Source: Tabrizicola thermarum (GTDB taxonomy: Bacteria > Pseudomonadota > Alphaproteobacteria > Rhodobacterales > Rhodobacteraceae). Taken from it: a DNA stretch of 64,000 nt. Under the pieces are notes generated by a model. That model was not told where the DNA came from. It ran no database searches and was given only the letters and a program-made list of their open reading frames with translations. Shown one piece after another: positions 24,303 to 44,037 of this stretch. The stretch spans positions 310,001 through 374,000 of the forward strand of contig NZ_QMJY01000013.1 of the NCBI RefSeq assembly GCF_003574395.1, in the 5' to 3' direction. Each line of letters opens with the position of its first letter. The first letter of the stretch is position 1. The position numbers and the translations under genes were made by a program.

Positions 24303-25748
24303 TCAAGCCTGGCTCTGGCCCATGGTCGCAAAGCGCTCCGGGTCCGCCGACTTCAGCCGCATCGCCAGAAGATAGCCGATCACGCCGCCCAAGGGGATCA
24401 GCGAGGGCAGGATCCAGCTCAGGCTGCCGCCCGTCGTCCCGGTCAGGTCGCCGTAGTTCAGGAAGATGTAGACGAACAGCGCCGCCATGATGATCCCGGC
24501 GATGGCAGGCAGGATCTTCGTCGACAGGGGCGAGCCGTCGCCCCGTTTCGCGAAGAAGGCGATCACCGAAGCCGAAGTGATCGCCATCATCCCGATCACC
24601 CCCAGCGTGCCGATCTGGCTGATCCAGGTGAACATGTTCAGGATCGGGTCCAGCCCCAGCCCGGCGAAGATCGCCAGCACGATCAGCGCACCCACGGTCT
24701 GCACCACCGACCCGACATGCGGGCTTTGATGCGCGTCATGGGTCTGACCAAAGGCCGCGGGCAGCAGCCCGTCACGGCCCGCCACATAGGAATAGCGGGC
24801 GATGTAGTTGTGAAAGGCCGACAGTGCGGCGAAGAGGCTCGAGACCAGCAGCAGCCCCGCGATCATCGAGATCGTCGGGTTGGTATAGGTCTCGGCCAGG
24901 ATGAAGAAATAGGCCGTCGGATCTTCCAGTGCGCCAAGTGTCTCCAGCAGCTTGTCCGCCCCCGTGCCCGCGATCATCAGCCAGGTGGTGAAGACGAAGA
25001 ACAGCCCGATCATCAGGATCGACAGGTAGGTCGCGCGGGGAATGGTCTTTTCCGGGTTCCTGGCCTCTTCGCCGTAGATCGTGGTGGCCTCGATCCCGAT
25101 GAAAGACCCCAGGCAGAACAGGACCGCCGCCGTCAGCGATCCCGAGGACAGCGCCGAAAAGTCGAAGATGTTGACGGCAAGCCCCTTGCCCTCGGCCCCG
25201 CCTGCACCCAGGATGGCGAAGTCGACGATGAAGACGATCAGATATTCCAGGCCCACCAGCACGACCATCACCCTGGCCGACAGGTCCACCTGCCGATAGC
25301 CCAGGATGCCGACCAAGGCGATGGCGATCAGGCTGTAGATCCACCAGGGCAGGTTGATGCCGAACTGGCTGAACACCCCCGCCGAAACGCCGCCCAGAAG
25401 ACCGATCAGGCCGAACTGCATGGTGTTGTAGGCCACCAGCGCCATCACGGACACCGCCCCGCCCATGCCGCCGCCCAGGCCCCGCGCGGCATAGGCGTAG
25501 AAGGCGCCCGCGTTGATGACATGGCGGCTCATCGCCACATAGCCCGCCGCAAAGGCCAGCATGACCAGCGTGAGAAGGATGAAGGTCAGCGGGATCCCGG
25601 TCCCGTTGCCCAGAAGAAAGGCCAGAGGCATGGCGCCCGCCACCCCGGTCAGGGGCGCCGCGGCCGAGATGACCATGAAGGTCACGGCGACAAGGCCAAG
25701 CGAATTCCGGCGCAGCCGGTTCGGGCCGATTTCGGTAAAGTCAGACAT
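24303..25748 (-). CDS. APC family amino acid/amine permease
   Basis: A 481-residue permease of the amino acid-polyamine-organocation superfamily with about twelve transmembrane helices. The first helix shows the family pattern around VISAAAPLTGVAGAMPLA. A conserved interior segment reads SFIGIEATTIYGEEARNPEKTIP, characteristic of APC proteins (here SFIGIEATTIYGEEARNP). It is the last gene of the minus-strand cluster that contains the glutamine-synthetase-like enzyme, so it probably imports the amine or amino acid substrate. A GGAGGGAA ribosome-binding site and an inverted repeat upstream suggest it may also have its own promoter. Confidence 0.85.
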   Translation of the reverse strand: MSDFTEIGPNRLRRNSLGLVAVTFMVISAAAPLTGVAGAMPLAFLLGNGTGIPLTFILLTLVMLAFAAGYVAMSRHVINAGAFYAYAARGLGGGMGGAVSVMALVAYNTMQFGLIGLLGGVSAGVFSQFGINLPWWIYSLIAIALVGILGYRQVDLSARVMVVLVGLEYLIVFIVDFAILGAGGAEGKGLAVNIFDFSALSSGSLTAAVLFCLGSFIGIEATTIYGEEARNPEKTIPRATYLSILMIGLFFVFTTWLMIAGTGADKLLETLGALEDPTAYFFILAETYTNPTISMIAGLLLVSSLFAALSAFHNYIARYSYVAGRDGLLPAAFGQTHDAHQSPHVGSVVQTVGALIVLAIFAGLGLDPILNMFTWISQIGTLGVIGMMAITSASVIAFFAKRGDGSPLSTKILPAIAGIIMAALFVYIFLNYGDLTGTTGGSLSWILPSLIPLGGVIGYLLAMRLKSADPERFATMGQSQA

Positions 25749-25820
25749 GTTCCCTCCGTGTTGCGCGGCGACCGGTCTTCTTGCCGGTTCACCCTTTGCC
25801 CACAGCCATCACGGGCCGCG

Positions 25821-25844
25821 AGATACTTAACAGTTTAACTATCT
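25821..25844. promoter_or_regulatory. Inverted repeat upstream of the permease gene
   Basis: AGATACTTAA, then CAGT, then TTAACTATCT: arms of ten bases matching at nine positions around a four-base spacer. It spans the stop codon of the flavin reductase and lies 73-96 bases upstream of the permease start. It could be an operator for the cluster's TetR protein or an AT-rich hairpin. Different in sequence from the palindrome at 32228-32243. Confidence 0.35.
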
Positions 25845-26353
25845 CCGCTCAGATGTATAGCCTTTCTGTAGGCCCGCTGCCCGTAAAGCAGCGCCGAACC
25901 CTCGCCTGACAGCCGCACCGCCGTGACCCGTCCGACGATGATGTGATGCGTCTCCCACAACAGCGCGGTGGCCAGGCGGCATTCGAAGGCCGCCGTCGCC
26001 CCCGACAGGATCGGCTGGCCCAGCGCCCCGGCCTCCCAGGCCGAGCGGTCGAACCGTTCCGCCCGGTCCGTCCCGCTGCGCCCGGCGAACAGGTTCGCCA
26101 GGTCCTGCTGGGTCTCGGCCAGAAGGTTGGCGCAGAAGGCCCGGTTCTGCAGGATCGCCGCCGCCGCCGGGGATTGCCGGTTGATGCAGACCAGAAGCGA
26201 GGGCTGCTCGCCATCCGCCGAGACCGAGGTCAGCGAGGACACGGTCACCCCGTGCCTCCCGCCCTCGCCATCGGTGGTGGCAACGGCCACGAAGGTCGCG
26301 GCGCGGCTCATCCCTTCGACAAAGGCGGCGCGCAGGTCGGCGGTGTCGGTCAT
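25835..26353 (-). CDS. Flavin reductase domain protein (cluster copy B)
   Basis: A 172-residue FMN-binding split-barrel flavin reductase of the type that supplies reduced flavin to two-component monooxygenases. Typical segments are GMSRAATFVAVATTDGEGG, HGVTVSSLTSVSADGEQPS, NRAFCANLLAE and LLWETHHIIVGRV. The start at 26353 follows the GS-like gene stop by four bases, so it belongs to the same operon. A second, different flavin reductase heads the cluster. Flavin reductases usually pair with a monooxygenase; the acyl-CoA-dehydrogenase-fold protein in the cluster is the obvious candidate. Confidence 0.87.
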   Translation of the reverse strand: MTDTADLRAAFVEGMSRAATFVAVATTDGEGGRHGVTVSSLTSVSADGEQPSLLVCINRQSPAAAAILQNRAFCANLLAETQQDLANLFAGRSGTDRAERFDRSAWEAGALGQPILSGATAAFECRLATALLWETHHIIVGRVTAVRLSGEGSALLYGQRAYRKAIHLSGDS

Positions 26354-26357
26354 CGTG

Positions 26358-27698
26358 TCATCCAAGATCAAAGAATCGGTCCAGTTCCACATCCGGGACC
26401 TTGCGGCGAAACTCGTCGTACTGCGACTCCCGCGTGGCGGTGAACCCGTCCACGAAGCGGTCGCCCAGCCAGTCCCGCGCAAAGGCCGACCCGCGCAGCC
26501 GCGCGATCGCCTCGGGCATCGAGCGGGCAAAGTCGCGGTCGGGCGTCCGGGCATAGCCCGAGCCGATGACCTCCGGGTCCGGCTCGATCCTGCCCGATAT
26601 CCCCGCGATCCCCGCCGCCAGGGTCGCCGCCGTCGTGAGGTAAGGGTTCGTGTCCGACCCAGGCAGCCGGTTTTCCACCCTCAGCGACCCCGGATCATGC
26701 CCGACCAGCCGGAAACAGGTGGTGCGGTTTTCATAGCCCCAGGTCAGGCCGGGCGGCGCGAAGGTGCCGGGGGCAAAGCGCCGGTAACTGTTCACCGTGG
26801 GCTGGAAGATCAGCGTCATGTCCCCGACATAGGCCTGCAACCCGCCAAGGAAATGCCGGAACGTCTCGCTGACCCCGTTCTTCTGCGCCGCATCCCAGAA
26901 CACCGGCGCCCCCGCCTTGTCCTTCAGGCTCATGTGCAGGTGGATCGACTGGCTGTCCGCCGTCTCGCTCCAGCGCGGCATGAAGGTCACCGACTTGCCC
27001 TGCCGCAGGGCCAGCGCCCGCAGGAAGTTCTTCAGCAGCACCAGCTGGTCCGCCGGCTCCAGCCCGCCGCCCGCCCCGATGCAGGCCTCCATGAACCCCG
27101 CGCCGATCTCTTCATGCATCTTGGCCAGATCGACCCTCAACGGCTCGCAGATCGCCGCCAGAGCCTCGTACCATTCCGTCTGCACCGCCTGATACAGGAT
27201 CAGATCGTGGCTGGCATGCTGGGTCGCGGGCTTGAGATTGCGGTAGCCCTTCGCCCTGGCACTTTCCGGGGTCTCGTCGAACAGCGTGTATTCCAGCTCC
27301 ATCCCGTATTTCGGGAAGAACCCCGCCTCTGCCGCCCGCGTCAGCACCTTCGACAGGATCGACCGGGGGCACAGCTCCGCCGAGGCCCCGGAGAAATTCG
27401 ACAGCACCAGCAGGTCATGCCCCGGCTTCGACCACGGCATCCGCCGCACGCTGGCCGGGTCCAGCACCAGCGGATCGTCGTGGAAATCGCCTGCGTCGTC
27501 ATTCACCCCCGGCAGGTTCAGAAACACATCCGTCGGGTCCAGCGCCAGCTGCGCCGGGGCCATGCCCATCCCGGCCCTGACAATCCCGCGCAGGCTGCTC
27601 ACCGACACCATCTGCCCGCGCAACAGACCGTTGGTATCCGTCATCGCCACCGTGGCAAAGCGGCTGCCGGGATCGGCCAGATAGTCGTCAAGCGTCAT
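26358..27698 (-). CDS. Glutamine synthetase family protein (gamma-glutamyl-amide ligase type)
   Basis: A 446-residue member of the glutamine synthetase superfamily, shorter and more divergent than GlnA and nearer to PuuA/GlnT-type enzymes that join glutamate to an organic amine using ATP. Metal and ATP motifs are visible: GMELEYTLF at 132-140, the SIHLHMSL histidine segment, NSYRRFAPG, and the C-terminal ENRLPGSDTNPYL. It is therefore probably catalytic. Its start overlaps the end of the TetR gene by 11 bases and its stop is four bases from the flavin reductase. The amine substrate is unknown. Confidence 0.87.
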   Translation of the reverse strand: MTLDDYLADPGSRFATVAMTDTNGLLRGQMVSVSSLRGIVRAGMGMAPAQLALDPTDVFLNLPGVNDDAGDFHDDPLVLDPASVRRMPWSKPGHDLLVLSNFSGASAELCPRSILSKVLTRAAEAGFFPKYGMELEYTLFDETPESARAKGYRNLKPATQHASHDLILYQAVQTEWYEALAAICEPLRVDLAKMHEEIGAGFMEACIGAGGGLEPADQLVLLKNFLRALALRQGKSVTFMPRWSETADSQSIHLHMSLKDKAGAPVFWDAAQKNGVSETFRHFLGGLQAYVGDMTLIFQPTVNSYRRFAPGTFAPPGLTWGYENRTTCFRLVGHDPGSLRVENRLPGSDTNPYLTTAATLAAGIAGISGRIEPDPEVIGSGYARTPDRDFARSMPEAIARLRGSAFARDWLGDRFVDGFTATRESQYDEFRRKVPDVELDRFFDLG

Positions 27699-28368
27699 GT
27701 CTCACCTGTTGCGAAGGGGCGCTTGCCAGCGCTTCGAGTTGGTGCAGGTCCGGCGCGGGGGCCGTCGAATAGGCCTTCAGGAACACCCGCAGGCCGTTCG
27801 TGATATAGCGATGCAGCGTCGCCCGGTCGGGCAGGGCATCGGGCATGTACAATGCCTGCGTCCGGGGCGCCGACAGGATCAGACCCCACAGGTCCTGCGC
27901 CGCCAGTTCCGCATCCTCGAACGCCAGCCGCCCGGCGCGGCGCTGGCTGTCCAGATAGCGCATGATCCCGCGCAACAGATGGTCGGGGCCGGATGCCTGA
28001 TAGGCCCGGCCGATTTCCGGAAACCGCTGCACCTCGCCGATGATAAGCCGCGCCAGCGCCAGCATTTCGGGCCGCATCACCGTGTCGGCATAGGCCCAGG
28101 CAAAGACCAAGAGGTCCGCCACCATGTCGCCCGAGGGATGCTCGAACACGTCCAGCATCACGTCGCGCTTGCCCAGCATCATCGCCTGGAACAGGCTCTC
28201 CTTCGACGGGAAGTAGCTGTAAAGCGTGGGCTTCGTCACCCCTGCCTCGGCCGCCACCGCATCCATCGAGGCGCCCGTGTAGCCCTGCGCCGCAAAGACC
28301 TTCAGCGCCGCATCCAGGATCGCCCGTTCCCGGTTCAGCCGGTTCTGCTGGCGACGCGAGCCGGTCAC
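27688..28368 (-). CDS. TetR family transcriptional regulator of the catabolic operon
   Basis: A 226-residue TetR repressor. The DNA-binding part is ERAILDAALKVFAAQGYTG and then VTKPTLYSYFPSKESLF, covering residues 13-60. The C-terminal domain is the AcrR-type ligand pocket. It starts with GTG whose A-adjacent bases overlap the stop of the upstream hydrolase (GTGA), and its end overlaps the GS-like gene by 11 bases. It is thus embedded in the operon and probably controls it by negative feedback. A palindrome at 32228-32243 is a candidate operator. Confidence 0.9.
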   Translation of the reverse strand: MTGSRRQQNRLNRERAILDAALKVFAAQGYTGASMDAVAAEAGVTKPTLYSYFPSKESLFQAMMLGKRDVMLDVFEHPSGDMVADLLVFAWAYADTVMRPEMLALARLIIGEVQRFPEIGRAYQASGPDHLLRGIMRYLDSQRRAGRLAFEDAELAAQDLWGLILSAPRTQALYMPDALPDRATLHRYITNGLRVFLKAYSTAPAPDLHQLEALASAPSQQVRHDA

Positions 28369-29798
28369 GGCAGCCGCCCCAGCAGGTCCAGAAGCGGGCG
28401 GTTGTAGGCCGCGGGTGCCTCCACATTGCAGACATGGCCTGCGCCTGCAATCACCTCGAACCGCACATCCGGCCGGGGCGCCATGTCCCAGATGCGCCCG
28501 GCGATGCCGCGAATCTCGGCCGGCGGCGCGAGGCGGTCATGTTCCCCGGTCATCAGCAAGACGGGCATCGTCAGACGGGAAAAGTCGAACCGCTCCAACG
28601 GGTTGGTAAAGCAGGTCAGGGCATCGCGGTAGGTTGCGGCGGGGATGGCGGCCATGCTGTCGAACAACCTCTGCCGCACCGCCTCTGACGCGCCGGGGCT
28701 TGCCAGCACCTTCACCACGGCGGGCGCAAAATCGGCCGGGGTCTGCCCCGCGTTCAACGGCACCTCGCGGCTGACCCGGAACGCCTCGCGCTCGTCCGGC
28801 CCCGCCTCGGACATGCCGGTGCAGCCGCCGGACAGGACCAGAGCGTCCAGCATCTCGGGATGCCGCATGGCAAAGGAGGTTGCGATCCACGACCCGTAGG
28901 ACAGCCCCACCAGCACCAGCCGCTTTGCCCCCAGCCTTTCCGCCACCCGCAGGATATCGGCGCAATAGTCGTCCACCGTGGACTGCCGCGCGCCCAGCGA
29001 GCTGTCGCCATAGCCCCGCAGATCCAGCGCCGCCGCTCGCATCACGCCGCCCACCGCGCGCAACTGATCCTCCCAGTTCGACCGCCCGCCGCCGATCCCG
29101 TGCAGGAACAGGCACAGTCGCCCGCCTGGCGCGTCCCCCCCACCCCCCTCCCCTCCCCACAGGGGGGAGGGGAGGCGCGCAGCGGATGCCGCAGCGCCGG
29201 ACCCCGAAAGCCGGGAGCCTCCCTCCCCCCGCGTGGGGGAGGGAGGGGGTGGGGGGGCGGCGATGGACAGGGCCAGCCGGGGCAGATCGTCGAAGACGCG
29301 CGTCTCCAGCCGGACCCCCGCGTCCGGGCCTGATGCATCTCCCTCTCGCCCGGGGCGCAAGGGTTGGGGAAAGGGTATCGCCGCCGCGTCACCCAGCGCC
29401 GCGATGCCCGCTTCGAAAACCCTTTTCGTCCCCTCGCAGATCGCCCCCAGCCGCGCCGCCGGCGCGCGCACTGTCGCGGTCCAGCCGACCACCGACCCGC
29501 GCGCCTCGGCCGGGCTCACCGTCACCCGCGCATCATAAGCCTCGCAATCGCGGATGCCCTCCAGATGGGTATAGCCCAGCACACGGTCGCTGTCGGAAAA
29601 GTAGGTCAGCTGCTCACGGTAGGTCGTATCCTCGCCCGCGACCGTAAAGGCCCGAATGCGCGCCCCCTTCGCCCCCCGCTCCTCGCGGATCGTCGCCACC
29701 CACGGATGCCAGGCCCCGCTGAAATCGCGCACGACCCGCCACACGTCCTCCGGCGCACGGGGCACATGTCCCTGAACCTGGATTATCTCCCGCCCCAT
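28365..29798 (-). CDS. SRPBCC domain fused to alpha/beta hydrolase, with in-frame repeat insertion
   Basis: A 477-residue fusion. Residues 1-145 form an SRPBCC (polyketide cyclase/START-like) domain. The alpha/beta hydrolase begins near residue 163. It has oxyanion motif HGIGG (233-237), nucleophile Ser300 in GLSYG, acid Asp421 in GEHD and His455 in GAGH, so the triad is complete. Residues 181-222 are a low-complexity stretch (PPPPPSPTRGEGGSRL, then LPSPLWGGEGGGG) encoded by a palindromic DNA repeat that interrupts the hydrolase between its first strands. Both ends overlap neighbours by ATGA/GTGA. It may cleave an amide or C-C bond in the ring-degradation product, as NicD does in nicotinate catabolism. 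Confidence 0.85.
   Translation of the reverse strand: MGREIIQVQGHVPRAPEDVWRVVRDFSGAWHPWVATIREERGAKGARIRAFTVAGEDTTYREQLTYFSDSDRVLGYTHLEGIRDCEAYDARVTVSPAEARGSVVGWTATVRAPAARLGAICEGTKRVFEAGIAALGDAAAIPFPQPLRPGREGDASGPDAGVRLETRVFDDLPRLALSIAAPPPPPSPTRGEGGSRLSGSGAAASAARLPSPLWGGEGGGGDAPGGRLCLFLHGIGGGRSNWEDQLRAVGGVMRAAALDLRGYGDSSLGARQSTVDDYCADILRVAERLGAKRLVLVGLSYGSWIATSFAMRHPEMLDALVLSGGCTGMSEAGPDEREAFRVSREVPLNAGQTPADFAPAVVKVLASPGASEAVRQRLFDSMAAIPAATYRDALTCFTNPLERFDFSRLTMPVLLMTGEHDRLAPPAEIRGIAGRIWDMAPRPDVRFEVIAGAGHVCNVEAPAAYNRPLLDLLGRLP
29134..29260. repeat. Palindromic repeat inserted in the hydrolase coding sequence
   Basis: About 127 bases made of two inverted, roughly 42-base units. Each folds into a C/G-rich hairpin (CCTCCCCTCCCC...GGGGAGGGGAGG on the left, CTCCCTCCCCC...GGGGGAGGGAG on the right) and each has an outer CCCCCCCACCCCC box. 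Between them is a short core, GCAGCGGATGCCGCAGCGCC. The element keeps the reading frame open. This kind of translation (SPTRGEGG, PLWGGEGGG) is familiar from repetitive palindromes in alphaproteobacterial genomes. Confidence 0.75.
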
Positions 29799-31138
29799 CA
29801 GCGCAGCGCCTTCAGGGACCCGCTGTCCCCCCGCCACAGGGAATTGCGCGCGCCGCCCTCATCGCCGGGGGCGCTGTCCAACTCGTCCATCTCGTACAGC
29901 GCCAGCACCCCGATGTAATCCTCCATGATTTCCGAGGTATAGGGCAACATCAACGCCCCGCAGCGGCTGTCGCGATACATCCGCTCCAGCGGCAGAGACT
30001 TCAGCATCGACTGCCCGCCGCAGGTGCGGATCGCCAGGGCGGTGATCTCCTGCACGCCCTCCATCACGTTGTACTGCGCCGCATACATCCGCATCACCTC
30101 GGCCTTGGACGGCATCCCCTTCGCCTCGGAAAACGCCTGCCACCACAGCGCCCGCATGTTCGCCAGCCGGGCATACATCTTGCTGACCGCCACCCGCTTG
30201 GTCGCATACATCCGCCGGTCGATCGGCGGCTGGCCCGGCACCAGGCCCTTCAGATAGGCGATGGTGAAGTCATAGGCCCCCTGCGCCACGCCCATGTAGG
30301 TGGGCGAAAGCGTCGCCATCATGTGCGGCCAGTTCGGCAGGGTCTTGCCGAAGATGCCGCGAGGCATCAGCAGGTCGTCCTTGGTGGCGAAAACGTCTTT
30401 CAGAATGAGATCCCGGCTGTTCGTCCCCCGCATCCCCAGCGGGTCCCAGTCCCCCTTCACCGTCAGACCCGGCGCATCCTTGTGGACCACGAACAGCATC
30501 GTGTCCTCGTGCCGGGGCTCCTGCCCTTCAAAGACCTCCGTGCAGACGATGGTGTAGTAGTCGCAATACCCCGCCAGCGAGGCGAACTTCTTGAACCCGT
30601 TGATCCTCCAGCCGCCCTCGACCGCGCGGCACTGGGTCTGGTTCGGCTTCGAGGTCCAGTTCTGCCCGCCCTCGGATATGGGCTGCGAATAGATCGCCCG
30701 CTCCTTCATCGCCCGGGTGAACTGCCGCGCCCGCAGCGGCGCAAACTCCGCCCGCTCGGCCTCGGTCAGGTTCGGCATGTCATACATGAACCGCGACCAG
30801 GCCATGGACGAGTTGTGCATGTTGAAGGTCAGCGCCGTCGCCCCGCAGTACTTGGCGATCTCGGCGCCCACCATGGCATATTCGCCCATGGAAAAGCCCC
30901 AGCCGCCGAACTCCTCGGGGATCGACAGGCCCAGGAACCCCGCCTCTGCCAGATCGCGGTAATTCGCCTCCGGAAACGACGCCTCGTCATCCACCGCCTT
31001 CGCCCGCGCGGCAAAGACCGGCCCCATCGCGTTGATCTTCCGCATCGCCTCGGCCACCTCGGGCCGGACGCGCGTCATGTCGTAGTAATCGGCGGGCATG
31101 CTCATCGGCATCGCGGCAACGGGGGTTTGCACGTTCAT
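29798..31138 (-). CDS. Acyl-CoA dehydrogenase-fold flavoprotein lacking the catalytic Glu, probable monooxygenase
   Basis: A 446-residue protein with the acyl-CoA dehydrogenase fold: N-terminal helical domain with YRDLAEAGFLGLSIPEEFGGWG, middle segment GFKKFASLAGYCDYYTIV, C-terminal domain with IRTCGGQSMLKSLPLERMYRD. In dehydrogenases the C-terminal motif continues to the base in YEGT. Here RDSRCGALMLPYTSEI places Leu398 at that position, so it should not be a normal dehydrogenase. Flavin-dependent monooxygenases such as DszC share this fold without the Glu. Two flavin reductases in the operon support that role. ATGA overlaps on both sides show tight coupling to the NicX-like and hydrolase genes. 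Confidence 0.82.
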   Translation of the reverse strand: MNVQTPVAAMPMSMPADYYDMTRVRPEVAEAMRKINAMGPVFAARAKAVDDEASFPEANYRDLAEAGFLGLSIPEEFGGWGFSMGEYAMVGAEIAKYCGATALTFNMHNSSMAWSRFMYDMPNLTEAERAEFAPLRARQFTRAMKERAIYSQPISEGGQNWTSKPNQTQCRAVEGGWRINGFKKFASLAGYCDYYTIVCTEVFEGQEPRHEDTMLFVVHKDAPGLTVKGDWDPLGMRGTNSRDLILKDVFATKDDLLMPRGIFGKTLPNWPHMMATLSPTYMGVAQGAYDFTIAYLKGLVPGQPPIDRRMYATKRVAVSKMYARLANMRALWWQAFSEAKGMPSKAEVMRMYAAQYNVMEGVQEITALAIRTCGGQSMLKSLPLERMYRDSRCGALMLPYTSEIMEDYIGVLALYEMDELDSAPGDEGGARNSLWRGDSGSLKALR

Positions 31139-32187
31139 GGGGCAAGCTCTCCTTGCAGAACGCCGTCCTTCACGACGACGCGCCCGTCGAGGGCGATGGT
31201 GCAGTTGCGCATCGGCAAATCGAAATGGCCCAGGGTGTAGCGCCCGGCATACTGGTTCGCGCCCGTGGACCACAGGAACGACCCGGCGATGGCCCGGAAC
31301 TCCACCGCCTGCATGTCGCGCTTGTCATACATGGCGGCGCTGACCCATGTCGCGCCGGGGTTCATCCCCCAGCCGACATGGCTGATCCCATAGGCGTTCC
31401 GGTCGCCCCAGGCCTCCAGGTATTCGCGGAAATGCAGCGCATCGATCCCGTCGCCCCTGATCGCGGTGACGAAGTCGTTCTCGATGGTGACATCGATCCG
31501 GCTGGTCAGGACGGTCTTGAAGGTCAGGTTCATGTCGCCCACCCCCATCACGATCCGCCCGTTCACCGCGTTCTGCCCCGGAAAAGCCAGGCACAGCCCC
31601 CCCGGCCAATGCGCCACCGACCCCGGAGCCGTCCCGAACCCCGCCGTCCCGCCACAGGGCGCGCCGCGCAGGTCCACCACCAGATCGGTGCCCAGGGCCG
31701 AAGTCACCCGCATCTCCGACGCCTCGCGCAACATCTGGATACCCAGCTGAACCTTCGGCCCGTGTTCCGCCTTCGGCTCGGTCCGCTCCAGGATCTCGGG
31801 ATGCTCGTTGGTGATGACCAAGAGCCGCGTCCGCCCCGCCGCCTCGATCTCCGGCCACTCGGGCGCGTGGATCAGCCCCTCCACCGTGCAATCGACGATC
31901 ACGTCAACCAGCTTCAGCGCCTCGATCACCGCGCGGTTGCCCTGGATCGCCCAGCTGGTGCCGGTGGATTTGACCGGGACAGGGGCCGTCTGCACCGGGG
32001 TCGGCATCTGGATCATGCAGAACTCGGCCCCCAGGTCATAGGCCGCCAACTCGCACAGATGGACCAGCACGGGCCGCGACTGGGTTTCGGACAGGATGGC
32101 AATCGGAGTGCCCTTGCCGATCCCGTTCAGCGCCAACACCCGGCGAAAGGCCGCCAGCCATTTGCCTTCGACGCGCTCCTGCAGCAT
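31135..32187 (-). CDS. NicX-like protein (2,5-dihydroxypyridine dioxygenase / M29 family)
   Basis: A 350-residue protein of the family that contains 2,5-dihydroxypyridine 5,6-dioxygenase (NicX) and M29-type aminopeptidases. The C-terminal third is very close to NicX from memory: AYGISHVGWGMNP, DMQAVEFRAIAGSFLWSTG and HFDLPMRNCTI. His270 (GISH), His321 and Asp323 (HFD) correspond to NicX iron-ligand positions, so an Fe(II) ring-opening dioxygenase is more likely than a peptidase. The start at 32187 is the ATG after AACGGGGAAAACGCG; a longer frame upstream runs through a palindromic operator and is rejected. Ring substrate unknown. Confidence 0.8.
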   Translation of the reverse strand: MLQERVEGKWLAAFRRVLALNGIGKGTPIAILSETQSRPVLVHLCELAAYDLGAEFCMIQMPTPVQTAPVPVKSTGTSWAIQGNRAVIEALKLVDVIVDCTVEGLIHAPEWPEIEAAGRTRLLVITNEHPEILERTEPKAEHGPKVQLGIQMLREASEMRVTSALGTDLVVDLRGAPCGGTAGFGTAPGSVAHWPGGLCLAFPGQNAVNGRIVMGVGDMNLTFKTVLTSRIDVTIENDFVTAIRGDGIDALHFREYLEAWGDRNAYGISHVGWGMNPGATWVSAAMYDKRDMQAVEFRAIAGSFLWSTGANQYAGRYTLGHFDLPMRNCTIALDGRVVVKDGVLQGELAP

Positions 32188-32227
32188 CGCGTTTTCCCCG
32201 TTGACGATTCGCGGCTTTGCGAATTTC

Positions 32228-32243
32228 TTTACTTGTGAGTAAA
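32228..32243. promoter_or_regulatory. Perfect 16-bp palindrome upstream of the NicX-like gene
   Basis: TTTACT-TGTG-AGTAAA: six-base arms match exactly around a four-base spacer. It sits 41-56 bases upstream of the NicX-like start codon, where a promoter would lie, within the 129-base gap that separates the first flavin reductase from the rest of the cluster. It is a good candidate operator for the TetR protein encoded downstream in the same cluster. Site seen directly; regulator inferred. Confidence 0.55.
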
Positions 32244-32316
32244 GGTTCGCGAGCCTGCGACATTCTGTCAACCGAAGTTTCGCAAATCCCGCGAGTTTCG
32301 ATAAACCCTTGCCGCC

Positions 32317-32949
32317 TCAGACCTTTCCCTCGGCCTTCAGCCCGGCCCAGGTCGGGCGCGGCAGGTCAAAGCGGTCGTGGGTGCGGATGTATTCCGCCCC
32401 GAAACTGCGGGCGACAAGGTCCAGCGCGTCGGTGTCGACATGCGCGCGCTCGGGGTTTTTCAGATAGGCGTCGTCGATATGCACCGCCAGCACCCGGCCG
32501 ATCACCACGGTCTGACACGGCCCCGTCACCACCGACGACAGCGCCCGACACTCGAAGGCCACCGGGCTGTCCGCGATCCGGGGCGGCACGACATGCGCGC
32601 TCGGCAGCACCGCCAACCCGGCCAAGGCCAGCTCGTCCACCCCGCGCGGGGCGTCCGCCGAGGTCAGGTTCATCGCGGCGACCAGCCGCTCCGGCACCAG
32701 GTTCACCACGAACTCTCCGGTCTCCAGGATGTTCAGCGCGGTGTCCTTGAACCCCCTGCCAGGGGCTGCCATCAGGCCCAGCGCCACGGTCGGCGGGGCC
32801 GATCCCATGACGTTGAAAAAGGAATAGGGTGCTCCGTTCACGCCTTGCGCGCCCTGCGTCACCACCCAGGCGATGGGCCGGGGAATCACCGTCGCGGCCA
32901 GCAGCTTGTAGGCGATGGCTTCCGGCACCTGATCCAGATCGTAGCGCAT
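32317..32949 (-). CDS. Flavin reductase family protein (cluster copy A)
   Basis: A 210-residue FMN-binding split-barrel protein of the DIM6/NTAB-type flavin reductase group, longer than copy B and only distantly related to it. Diagnostic segments are KLLAATVIPRPIAWVVTQG, NGAPYSFFNVMGSAPPTV, KDTALNILETGEFVVNLV and MNLTSADAPRGVDELALAG. GGGAGG precedes the start. It is the first gene of the minus-strand cluster, 129 bases before the NicX-like gene. It may reduce flavin for the acyl-CoA-dehydrogenase-fold protein, or itself act on a substrate. Confidence 0.85.
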   Translation of the reverse strand: MRYDLDQVPEAIAYKLLAATVIPRPIAWVVTQGAQGVNGAPYSFFNVMGSAPPTVALGLMAAPGRGFKDTALNILETGEFVVNLVPERLVAAMNLTSADAPRGVDELALAGLAVLPSAHVVPPRIADSPVAFECRALSSVVTGPCQTVVIGRVLAVHIDDAYLKNPERAHVDTDALDLVARSFGAEYIRTHDRFDLPRPTWAGLKAEGKV

Positions 32950-33091
32950 CAGACCTCCCTCGCTGCCGGTTTGGCTTGAGTGTCCACCCCCGGTGCGAAC
33001 ACATCGGGCCGGGCATAATGCCCCGTCACGTCGAAATCAAACCTTGCCCGCATCACCTCGGCCGGGTCGATCTGCGCCCACCCCTTCCGGC

Positions 33092-33247
33092 GTGCCCAGA
33101 GGCTCGGACCTCAGCCAGTATTCCCGGCGCGACTTCGACTACATCGCAAAACTGATGAACGACCGACCCCGAAAGACCCTCGGCTGGCGAACCCCAGCCG
33201 AAGCCTTCGCCGAGGAAATCGCAAAAAGCGTTGCAATTGGAACTTGA
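33092..33247 (+). pseudogene. IS30 family transposase remnant (C-terminal end)
   Basis: Fifty codons read PRGSDLSQYSRRDFDYIAKL, then NDRPRKTLGWRTPAEAF, which is the distinctive C-terminus of IS30-type transposases (PRGTDLS, N-x-RPRKTLG-x-TPAE). The upstream DDE domain is missing and the preceding frame shows no transposase similarity, so this is a decayed fragment. No terminal inverted repeats were identified. It ends immediately before the 72-bp dispersed repeat. Confidence 0.85.
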
Positions 33248-33248
33248 G

Positions 33249-41939: not shown

Positions 41940-42009
41940 GGGCGGGACCTTCGCTTTTGATCGGGGTCCGTGTATCCCGTGGGAGAGAGGCGGGCAAGCG
42001 GGGGGTGCG

Positions 42010-42210
42010 ATGGACCGGGTCGAGGCTCTGGAGGAACGGGTGGCCCACCTGATGCGGGCGGTGGAGGATCTGTCGGACGTGGTGGCCCGGCAGGCGGGGG
42101 AGATCGCGGGGCTGGAGCGGCGGGTTCGGCTGCTGATGGAGCGGGCTGCGGAGGAGGAGGCCCTGGGGGGAGCCCCTCCGGAGGCGAACGTCCGCCCGCC
42201 GCACTGGTGA
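42010..42210 (+). CDS. SlyX family protein
   Basis: A 66-residue coiled-coil protein of the SlyX family, function unknown. It has the characteristic heptad pattern [19 protein letters not shown] and [20 protein letters not shown] chose the ATG at 42010 because GGGGGTG lies upstream and the similarity starts there. It is divergent from hisS across 70 bases. A copy of the dispersed 72-bp repeat starts three bases after its stop codon. Confidence 0.78.
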
Positions 42211-42212
42211 GC

Positions 42213-42284
42213 GCGCCGCGCGCGGCGCGGTGGAGGCCGCAAAGGATTCCAAGGGGTTAGCTGTGGGCGTTAGGGGTTTGTTAA
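42213..42284 (+). repeat. 72-bp dispersed repeat, copy B
   Basis: Inverted relative to copy A at 33249-33320, with 67 of 72 positions identical. It starts with the palindrome GCGCCGCGCGCGGCGC immediately after slyX and ends GTTAGGGGTTTGTTAA. The AT-rich reverse transcriptase island begins right after it. The remaining roughly 110 bases before the reverse transcriptase start show no gene. Confidence 0.85.
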
Positions 42285-42393
42285 GCTTTTGCTGCCATCA
42301 TTTTCCTGAGTGCTGCCCTACAACTTTGGCTTGTCTCGCATTGCGTCTAAGGTTGATATTGCCTTGAGTAGCGGCCTTTTCAGGACCTAACGA

Positions 42394-44037
42394 ATGAACA
42401 AAACTGAGCGTTTGAAGTTACTTTTGGAGAAAGGTCACTTTCCCGCAGAACTTCCACCACCTTTCAACACAGCGGACTTTGCCAAATACCGAAAGTCACT
42501 CGCGGCGGCTTGGCCGAACAACGATCCGCCCAAGACTGCACCGGAAGTTTACAACACTCAGCGGCTCGGCTGGAAGCGGCGAAGCTTAGCGATTGTGAAT
42601 CCAATTTCGCAGTATCACCTGAGCAAGACGATCGCAGACAACTGGATTGCAATTAAGACCTTCCTAGACACAAGCAAGATTTCGCTAGACAGCGCAAACC
42701 TAGTGAAAGAAGCAACTAGAGCCGTACCCAAACCTGATTTCTCCCGGATTGAGTTCATGAAGCTCAATGCAGGTGGGGACTTCGACCACATTCTCATAAG
42801 TGATATCTCTAGGTTTTATGGAACGATTTACACACATACACTACCTTGGGCCTTTACTGGCAAGGCATGGTGTAAAAGCCATGTTAACTCGCCTCTACTA
42901 AAGGCCACGATAGGTGATCAACTGGACCGTGCCGTTCGAAAAGGACAAGACAATCAAACTATAGGCATTCCGATTGGACCCGATACGTCTAGGATTCTAT
43001 CTGAAATTGTAGCAATTGGAATCGAGAGAGAATTCCTTAGATTGGCAAATCCAGAGATCGGCAGTGCGTATAGATTCGTTGATGATTGGTTCATCGGTCA
43101 CAACTCAGCTCAAGCCGCCGAGTCTGCCATTCGCTTTCTAGCGGAGGCTTGTGCCGAATTTGAGCTAGAATTAAATCTTGAAAAGACCAGCGTGATAAAC
43201 GCCAAGGACGAAATTGTTGAAGTGTGGCCCAATGAACTCTTAGAACTAGTAGTAAACCACACCAAAGCCAGTGAGCAAGCCCGTCAATTAAATCGATTCT
43301 TCCCAAAAGCATTCAGTTTAGCGAAGGAGAAGCCAGGGAGCAACGTAATGGACTATGCTCTGAAAGCTTCGCGCTCGTTCAGGATTGGCAAGGATACCTA
43401 TCCACTCTTTGAAAGCTACATCTTAAGGAGCGCGCGGGCTTATCCCATTACGCTCCCTACAGTCGTACAGATACTAGTTAACTACAAGAAAGACAGGGCG
43501 CCAGTCAATCTAGCGCGCTGCAAGAAGTTGATTGTGGATGAAATCAAAAGATCCGCGCCACTTCGCCATACAGCGGAAGTTTCGTGGGCACTCTTCCTTG
43601 CCAAAGCTCTAGGCATTGCAATACCCTCTTTGGAGCTTGATGTGATTGTGCGAACAGACAACGCCACGTGGGCACTGTTGGTGCTGGATCTTGAGCAGCG
43701 CGGCTTGATTGACGGAGTCTTGGACAAGACCTATTGGACAAGTCTTATGGTCGACGGTAGCTTGTATACCGCCAATTGGCTCCTTGTTTACGAGGCTGAT
43801 CTTAAGGGCTGGCTCACGCCTGCGGACCCAAACTTGATTAGCAACAATCCATGGTTCAAACCCCTTAAAGCGAAGAAGGTTAGCTTCTACGACACCAACA
43901 GGAATGTTGAGACATTCAAGAAGTCTAGATCAACTTCTATATCAGCTGCGAAAATACGGCGAGCAGTGACGCAGTCCTGGCTGGAGGCATTCCTTCGCAC
44001 AAGTTCAATACCTCCAAGCGAAGTTGCGGCTCCATGA
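42394..44037 (+). CDS. Solitary reverse transcriptase, probable antiphage (UG/Abi-like)
   Basis: A 547-residue protein with a reverse transcriptase domain in about residues 60-290. Visible motifs are the motif A aspartate Asp137 in LISDISRFYGTIY, GIPIGPDTSR (191-200, motif B region), the active-site YRFVDDWFI with Asp230-Asp231, and the LELNLEKTS segment (motif E). The N-terminal FPAELPPPFNTADFA and the long C-terminal all-helical extension resemble the unknown-group/abortive-infection reverse transcriptases rather than retrons or group II introns; no maturase or HNH domain is seen. Base use is far more AT-rich than its neighbours (26 G/C in 60 in sampled rows at 42661 and 43021), so it was acquired by transfer. 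It is a single-gene island. Which UG family it belongs to cannot be decided here. Confidence 0.87.
   Translation: MNKTERLKLLLEKGHFPAELPPPFNTADFAKYRKSLAAAWPNNDPPKTAPEVYNTQRLGWKRRSLAIVNPISQYHLSKTIADNWIAIKTFLDTSKISLDSANLVKEATRAVPKPDFSRIEFMKLNAGGDFDHILISDISRFYGTIYTHTLPWAFTGKAWCKSHVNSPLLKATIGDQLDRAVRKGQDNQTIGIPIGPDTSRILSEIVAIGIEREFLRLANPEIGSAYRFVDDWFIGHNSAQAAESAIRFLAEACAEFELELNLEKTSVINAKDEIVEVWPNELLELVVNHTKASEQARQLNRFFPKAFSLAKEKPGSNVMDYALKASRSFRIGKDTYPLFESYILRSARAYPITLPTVVQILVNYKKDRAPVNLARCKKLIVDEIKRSAPLRHTAEVSWALFLAKALGIAIPSLELDVIVRTDNATWALLVLDLEQRGLIDGVLDKTYWTSLMVDGSLYTANWLLVYEADLKGWLTPADPNLISNNPWFKPLKAKKVSFYDTNRNVETFKKSRSTSISAAKIRRAVTQSWLEAFLRTSSIPPSEVAAP

Follow-up and report, generated by a model that had tools for sequence, protein, structure and literature searches.

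Which compound is broken down by a compact set of catabolic genes in Tabrizicola thermarum, and which of these genes form one operon? The genes lie at positions 24303-32949 of a 64,000-nucleotide stretch (the window; positions 310,001 to 374,000 of contig NZ_QMJY01000013.1) of a 3.65 Mb genome, and a preliminary description had read them as an eight-gene operon for an undescribed N-heteroaromatic or amino-aromatic pathway. All eight named genes are intact open reading frames on the minus strand, and Pfam bore out the domains given for them: Flavin_Reduct in two genes, the N-terminal, middle and C-terminal domains of acyl-CoA dehydrogenases, Polyketide_cyc2 and Abhydrolase_1 combined in one protein, TetR_N, Gln-synt_C and AA_permease. 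Our preferred reading, to which we give a probability of about 0.45, is that the genes from a NicX-like dioxygenase to an APC permease encode a catabolic pathway in which hydroxylation, Fe(II)-dependent ring opening and amide hydrolysis would lead to an anthranilate-type product.

Three sets of loci were compared (L numbers denote individual loci and G numbers the genomes compared, G000 being the window genome). The window-type set contains 95 distinct NicX loci at 63-98% identity, the window itself excluded; in the 38 loci of the sister set, which come from Alphaproteobacteria and from other classes of the phylum, NicX identity is 45-58%; and a control set of true NicX contains 8 loci at 32-39% identity, among them L131, the source of the Nic queries. 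Identical NicX proteins were counted as one locus, 15 loci without a core NicX match were excluded from the co-occurrence counts, and loci from one genus are not independent. Residue counts refer to 95 window-type proteins including that of the window, with L180 (276 aa) left out.

The NicX-like gene (31135-32187, minus strand) encodes a predicted Fe(II) ring-cleaving dioxygenase. Its product had no Pfam or NCBIfam match; it matches NicX (PDB 7cn3, E 7e-55), to which it is 33% identical in the structural alignment, and its AlphaFold model (pLDDT 90.1) gave TM scores of 0.90-0.91 to NicX versus 0.56-0.60 to M29 aminopeptidases. According to PMC7910607, the iron of NicX is bound by His265, Ser302, His318 and Asp320, and its substrate is held by Glu177 and His189, of which Glu177 contacts N1/O1 of 2,5-dihydroxypyridine; the E177A variant retains 2.7% activity. 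The window protein has the fold, the four iron ligands, His105 and His189 in common with this NicX, and the four ligands are kept in 95/95 window-type proteins (Asp320 in 94/95, Val in L076 being the sole exception), in 38/38 sister proteins and in 8/8 true-NicX-type proteins. It differs at the Glu177 position, which is Thr in 95/95 window-type proteins and Glu in 5/8 controls; most sister proteins have Val (21) or Gly (14) there. Annotated plasmid copies label the dioxygenase 'peptidase M29', a reading that is excluded by the fold and the iron ligands, so that the preliminary description was right to call the protein NicX-type and not a peptidase. In a FastTree phylogeny rooted on NicX, the window-type genes form one group with support of 0.55, and window-type and sister genes together form one group (0.96), within which the sister genes are paraphyletic.

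The gene set is conserved and not scattered. Among the best 80 of 582 relatives, retained by a conservation scan, the order NicX-flavoprotein-SRPBCC-hydrolase is kept in 77/80, the same order followed by TetR and a glutamine-synthetase-like ligase (GSL) in 68/80, and all eight parts from NicX through the permease in 49/80, in support of the uncharacterised catabolic operon that had been proposed. Among 390 genomes of the order, NicX at at least 69% identity is found in 12, the window genome included. The 95 window-type loci contain the flavoprotein in 92, the hydrolase in 90, TetR in 85, the GSL in 81, reductase B in 74 and the permease in 58; the corresponding numbers for the 76 loci with at least 6 kb on each side are 76, 76, 72, 69, 65 and 52. 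Sister loci retain the hydrolase (33), the flavoprotein (30) and a flavin reductase (17); 25 of them have an acyl-CoA ligase gene and 12 a MarR gene, and matches to GSL, APC permease or TetR were found in 0/38; the eight control loci contain NicE (5), NicD (5) and NicF (4), and flavoprotein in 0. Among the matches listed, the named records that carry the core come from Rhodobacteraceae, Mesorhizobium, Rhizobium, Shinella, a SAR116-cluster cell and a Chromatiales bacterium; of these records, that of Tabrizicola flagellatus (Rhodobacteraceae) has the NicX-like gene closest to the one in the window (95%).

The second enzyme is an acyl-CoA-dehydrogenase-fold flavoprotein (29798-31138, minus strand; likely start codon at 31138, read from the sequence), probably a monooxygenase component. 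At what we take to be the position of the base Glu of acyl-CoA dehydrogenases, in a YEGT-type motif, Pro is present in 92/93 window-type and 29/30 sister flavoproteins, the remainder being gaps; the missing base had been noticed in the preliminary description, and on it we rejected a normal acyl-CoA dehydrogenase. The fold search alone is not decisive: it matched monooxygenases and dehydrogenases alike, with a model (pLDDT 78.2) that is weak near the active site. The probable reductase partner is the RutF/HpaC-like flavin reductase B (25835-26353, minus strand; likely start codon at 26353, also read from the sequence), so the window contains an oxygenase and flavin reductase gene pair, the reductase being present in 74/95 window-type and 17/38 sister loci. 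The p-hydroxyphenylacetate 3-hydroxylase C1/C2 system has the same pairing of an acyl-CoA-dehydrogenase-fold oxygenase with a flavin reductase, and a MarR gene is found with it as in some sister loci, but the match is far below its curated family cut-offs. In the sister locus L205 a reductase that is below the cut-off, yet resembles that of p-hydroxyphenylacetate 3-hydroxylase, and a MarR gene adjoin the flavoprotein gene. The third enzyme is a fusion of an SRPBCC domain to an alpha/beta hydrolase with a GLSYG motif (28365-29801, minus strand); a hydrolase gene likewise accompanies the ring-opening gene in the NicD/NicF/NicE lower pathway of nicotinate.

The remaining genes of the set encode a TetR/AefR-type regulator (27688-28368), the GSL (26358-27698) and the APC permease (24303-25748), all on the minus strand. 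At what we presume to be the ammonia-site Glu327 position of glutamine synthetase, located by motif, the GSL has Phe in 86/87 proteins (in one the position was not located). It has the glutamine-synthetase scaffold in common with gamma-glutamylputrescine synthetase, here with the ammonia-site Glu lost, but scores far below the curated cut-off for that enzyme; gamma-glutamylanilide synthase, which we take to be built on the same scaffold, is a further comparison. Five window-type loci (L035, L043, L062, L097 and L102) contain a second GSL with P450 and amidotransferase-like genes near the core, and L035 and L043 a ferredoxin as well; by analogy, this set resembles a P450 version of an aniline-oxygenase set.

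Where does the operon begin? Flavin reductase A (32317-32949, minus strand; PF01613) is separated by 129 bp from the NicX-like ATG at 32187, and this gap contains a TTGACA box (32271-32266) and an inverted repeat, CTTTACTCACAAGTAAAG (32244-32227), which together (32227-32271, minus strand) are probably a promoter and a candidate operator to which TetR may bind. The pattern TTWAC-N4-6-NGTWAA occurs upstream of NicX in 63/96 window-type regions (window included), 62 of them with a TTGACN box, and in 0/38 sister regions; its background is 0.2% in shuffled and 0.9% in random sequence, the latter possibly including stretches that contain the site itself. Instead of the eight-gene operon first described, there are thus probably seven genes, from NicX-like to APC with their own TetR as controller, preceded by the remnant of another module.

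That module consists of GntR, gentisate dioxygenase, FAH, nitrilase and reductase A, and two traces of its loss had been overlooked: a truncated 3' end of a nitrilase (carbon-nitrogen hydrolase) gene at ~32952-33077 on the minus strand (tblastn, 63-81% in those of the best 80 loci that have the gene; the intact nitrilase of L111 is a CN_hydrolase in Pfam), and a junction segment at 33078-33248 on the plus strand. Relative to L030, ~3.85 kb is absent from the window and 33078-33248 sits in its place (blastn), and the flanking DNA aligns to L115 from 33240 onward and to L033 from 33249 onward. The missing DNA, which is found in T. flagellatus, contains GntR, gentisate dioxygenase, FAH and most of the nitrilase gene, and a search of the whole window genome found no gentisate dioxygenase. 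The junction holds the end of an open reading frame, 48 aa without a Pfam match, which presumably resembles the C-terminus of an IS30-type transposase. In the window-type set, reductase A is present in 38/95 loci, gentisate dioxygenase in 37/95 and both in 31/95, with FAH in 40 and nitrilase in 25 (31, 31 and 19 of the 76 well-flanked loci for gentisate dioxygenase, FAH and nitrilase). The module with reductase A also occurs, complete or in part, without a NicX core, in eight 20-kb stretches (L165, L167-L170, L172, L174 and L175); five of these (L168, L170, L172, L174 and L175) have gentisate dioxygenase-FAH-nitrilase-reductase, and in two of the five, L168 and L170, GntR was seen as well. Reductase A is therefore probably left over from this second, mostly deleted module, although seven loci with reductase A and no gentisate dioxygenase match (including L035 and L043; some are at contig ends) weigh against its being purely a remnant.

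Several loci show the module in other states. The plasmid pAA02 of Aminobacter aminovorans (L111) carries a full 12-gene version near beta-hydroxyaspartate-cycle genes. L180, whose 2.3-Mb genome belongs to the same family, has its core NicX near a gentisate dioxygenase-FAH pair, and TctABC-type transport and Rieske oxygenase-like genes (read from the sequence) lie nearby. Between NicX and the gentisate module, L056 (9126-9860) and L061 (9003-9740) have a maleate-isomerase-like gene that is 64-65% identical to the L131 NicE; its presence suggests that maleylpyruvate may be hydrolysed directly there. In G337, on a contig matching T. flagellatus, the bifunctional monooxygenase discussed below is matched in its first half only, with one internal stop (C2:9172-10281), and the gentisate module is present; the window genome is the opposite, with a full-length monooxygenase and the module lost.

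Values of dN/dS against L030 (own script) are 0.07-0.16 in 7/9 segments, 0.18 in SRPBCC and 0.23 in reductase B, which indicates purifying selection on the genes in the past, though not necessarily since the module was deleted. A G+C-rich palindromic repeat (29126-29262, unstranded) lies in frame within the linker of the SRPBCC-hydrolase fusion, and its 41 genome-wide matches (counting both strands and itself) make it look like a member of a REP-like family. Farther along the window, at 42001-44000, G+C falls to 0.515, and at ~42-44 kb the GC skew flips sign, a turn of the cumulative skew.

Which lower pathways accompany the core? A gentisate dioxygenase, or else an aryl-CoA ligase or bifunctional monooxygenase (13/95), lies within the fetched stretch of 48/95 window-type loci. 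An aryl-CoA ligase 78-89% identical to that of the window genome is present in 11 window-type loci, and in L040, L046, L050, L089 and L098 it is directly behind the permease (gaps of 76-99 bp) and 86-89% identical to the ligase of the window genome's monooxygenase cluster (L230). In that cluster the monooxygenase is above the PRK08255 cut-off and the ligase just under the benzoate-CoA ligase subfamily cut-off. PRK08255-type bifunctional salicylyl-CoA 5-hydroxylase/oxidoreductases are present in 8/38 sister loci from three genera, mostly with a hydratase and an SDR (that of L196 is above the cut-off), and in 2/95 window-type loci. Tryptophan-side genes also adjoin the core: in L205 the neighbours arylformamidase, kynureninase and tryptophan 2,3-dioxygenase each exceed their cut-off, and three Shinella window-type loci have tryptophan dioxygenase matches (60-63%, no model check). 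L232 combines monooxygenase, ligase and tryptophan dioxygenase (the last just under cut-off), in L174 a monooxygenase cluster of this kind adjoins the gentisate module, and L176 has gentisate dioxygenase and FAH beside the ligase, hydratase and SDR of one. A full-length monooxygenase (at least 66% identity) is present in 10/12 core-bearing versus 10/35 core-less genomes (p 0.0017; the core-less genomes were hand-picked and relatedness was not corrected for); including one 49% match (G002) the core-less count is 11/35 (p 0.0026), and without four genomes of one genus it is 6/31 (p 0.0002). A search for Amidohydro_2 in the window genome had no useful outcome. As far as gene neighbourhoods can tell, anthranilate appears to be the point where several of these gene sets meet, and the neighbours seem to point more to anthranilate/gentisate chemistry than to nicotinate or hydroxypyridine.

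NicX cuts 2,5-dihydroxypyridine between the C-OH carbon and the CH next to the nitrogen, leaving an N-formyl group, and the same motif is present in indoxyl and 3-hydroxy-4-quinolones. The pathway that we prefer would run as follows: the permease or another carrier would import the substrate; the flavoprotein, supplied by flavin reductase B, would hydroxylate an N-heteroaromatic ring; the NicX-like enzyme would cleave the bond that joins the hydroxylated carbon to the nitrogen-adjacent CH, giving an N-formyl (or N-acyl) group; and the alpha/beta hydrolase would take this group off. The anthranilate-like (2-aminobenzoate type) product would then pass to the aryl-CoA ligase and the bifunctional monooxygenase/reductase, both encoded elsewhere in the window genome; in relatives it would enter gentisate cleavage instead. 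The most specific guess is indoxyl to N-formylanthranilate to anthranilate. The gene conservation, the fold, the iron ligands, the lost Glu177, the lost dehydrogenase Glu and the neighbourhoods are direct observations, whereas each reaction, the substrate and any role of the GSL and SRPBCC parts are inferences. That a new NicX-type branch opens a benzo-fused N-ring, and that it marks an undescribed indole/quinolone-to-anthranilate route in Alphaproteobacteria and one or more further classes, is a tentative and rather unlikely extension.

A number of observations weigh against the preferred pathway. The conserved GSL has no clear step in it, and the SRPBCC part is not accounted for by it either. 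Neither ligase nor monooxygenase is present in the fetched stretch of 82/95 window-type loci, one genus accounts for 5 of the 8 monooxygenase-bearing sister loci, and Shinella for all the tryptophan dioxygenase loci. Homoprotocatechuate-type genes in 7/95 window-type loci and the P450/second-ligase set in 5/95 are unexplained by anthranilate. Transport genes vary (APC, and TctABC-, ProU- and TRAP-like, these three read from the sequence), which is odd for neutral indole. The fold search and the weak model do not separate a monooxygenase from a dehydrogenase.

An alternative is a pathway led by the GSL, with aniline-type gamma-glutamylation of an arylamine or phenolic amine and the NicX-like protein opening an aminophenol-type ring: the ligase is conserved with Phe at the Glu327 position, 10 window-type loci have amidotransferase-like matches when the identity floor is set as low as 24%, homoprotocatechuate-type genes occur in 7/95, and L111 encodes a protein annotated as tyramine oxidase subunit B. 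We nevertheless find this unlikely, since the sister family retains NicX, hydrolase and flavoprotein with no ligase in any of its 38 loci. Breakdown of a quinolone or quinoline, in which 3-hydroxylation and cleavage would give an N-acylanthranilate and the hydrolase would act as amidase or cofactor-free dioxygenase, would end at the same anthranilate node, as the quinaldine pathway does; no quinoline-specific oxidoreductase was noticed nearby, in the course of reading that was not a systematic search, and this alternative strikes us as decidedly doubtful.

We consider it improbable that the operon is the whole or part of a pathway for homarine (N-methylpicolinate), in which an N-methylglutamate skeleton would result from hydroxylation, NicX-type 5,6-cleavage and deformylation. 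The homarine operon homABCDER reportedly encodes five enzymes and a regulator, a count that our operon could fit. The carbon count fits by our inference, and the core is found in a record titled SAR116 cluster (L099). However, the neighbours indicate benzoate-type lower pathways, and the core is present in 0/6 genomes of genus g16; G017 belongs to this genus, and no other gentisate dioxygenase that we found is as close as its copy (93%) to PDB 3bu7, which we take to be the enzyme of Ruegeria pomeroyi, a species not itself among the genomes searched. Our literature searches found no description of the gene combination; the homarine catabolism study, a 2026 paper cited in PMC13390433, was outside their reach. 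Finally, an ordinary nicotinate/hydroxypyridine (nic) variant acting on 2,5-dihydroxypyridine was rejected as very improbable in spite of its fold and iron site, on the loss of Glu177 and on NicF and NicD matches (at least 45% identity, as for NicE) in 0/95 window-type loci versus 4 and 5 of the 8 true-NicX-type loci, which include the source of the queries. The preliminary description was right about the type of pathway and about the missing Nic partners, apart from a NicE-like gene in 2/95 window-type loci (L056 and L061, there with a gentisate module), and needs correction in its operon limits and its pyridine assumption.

Other routes that end at or pass through anthranilate have been described. 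The iif and ipo-dho indole pathways, as presented in PMC12538310 and PMC9871250, also have a two-component flavin oxygenase and the anthranilate end proposed here, but with an oxygenase of the styrene-monooxygenase type and a cofactor-independent oxygenase, whereas the window encodes an acyl-CoA-dehydrogenase-fold protein, not of the styrene-monooxygenase type, and an Fe(II) dioxygenase. The iad auxin locus (PMC9613470) likewise ends at anthranilate, and its key genes iadDE were not noticed in the loci read by eye, for which no dedicated search was made. A route from indole through indoxyl, isatin and anthranilate to gentisate was reported in 1983, and a 2018 review states that the functional gene of the gentisate pathway was not revealed (PMC6221969).

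If the indole/quinolone route is true, the loci with the gentisate module attached would be candidate genes for this 1983 route, and tryptophan-derived chemistry would be linked to a lower pathway by enzymes that we have not found described for such use. If the operon instead belongs to homarine, its substrate would be a marine metabolite with a breakdown pathway published in 2026, and the operon would then be already known. Either way, these organisms carry a compact operon with a promoter candidate and a regulator that can be tested in cultivable strains.

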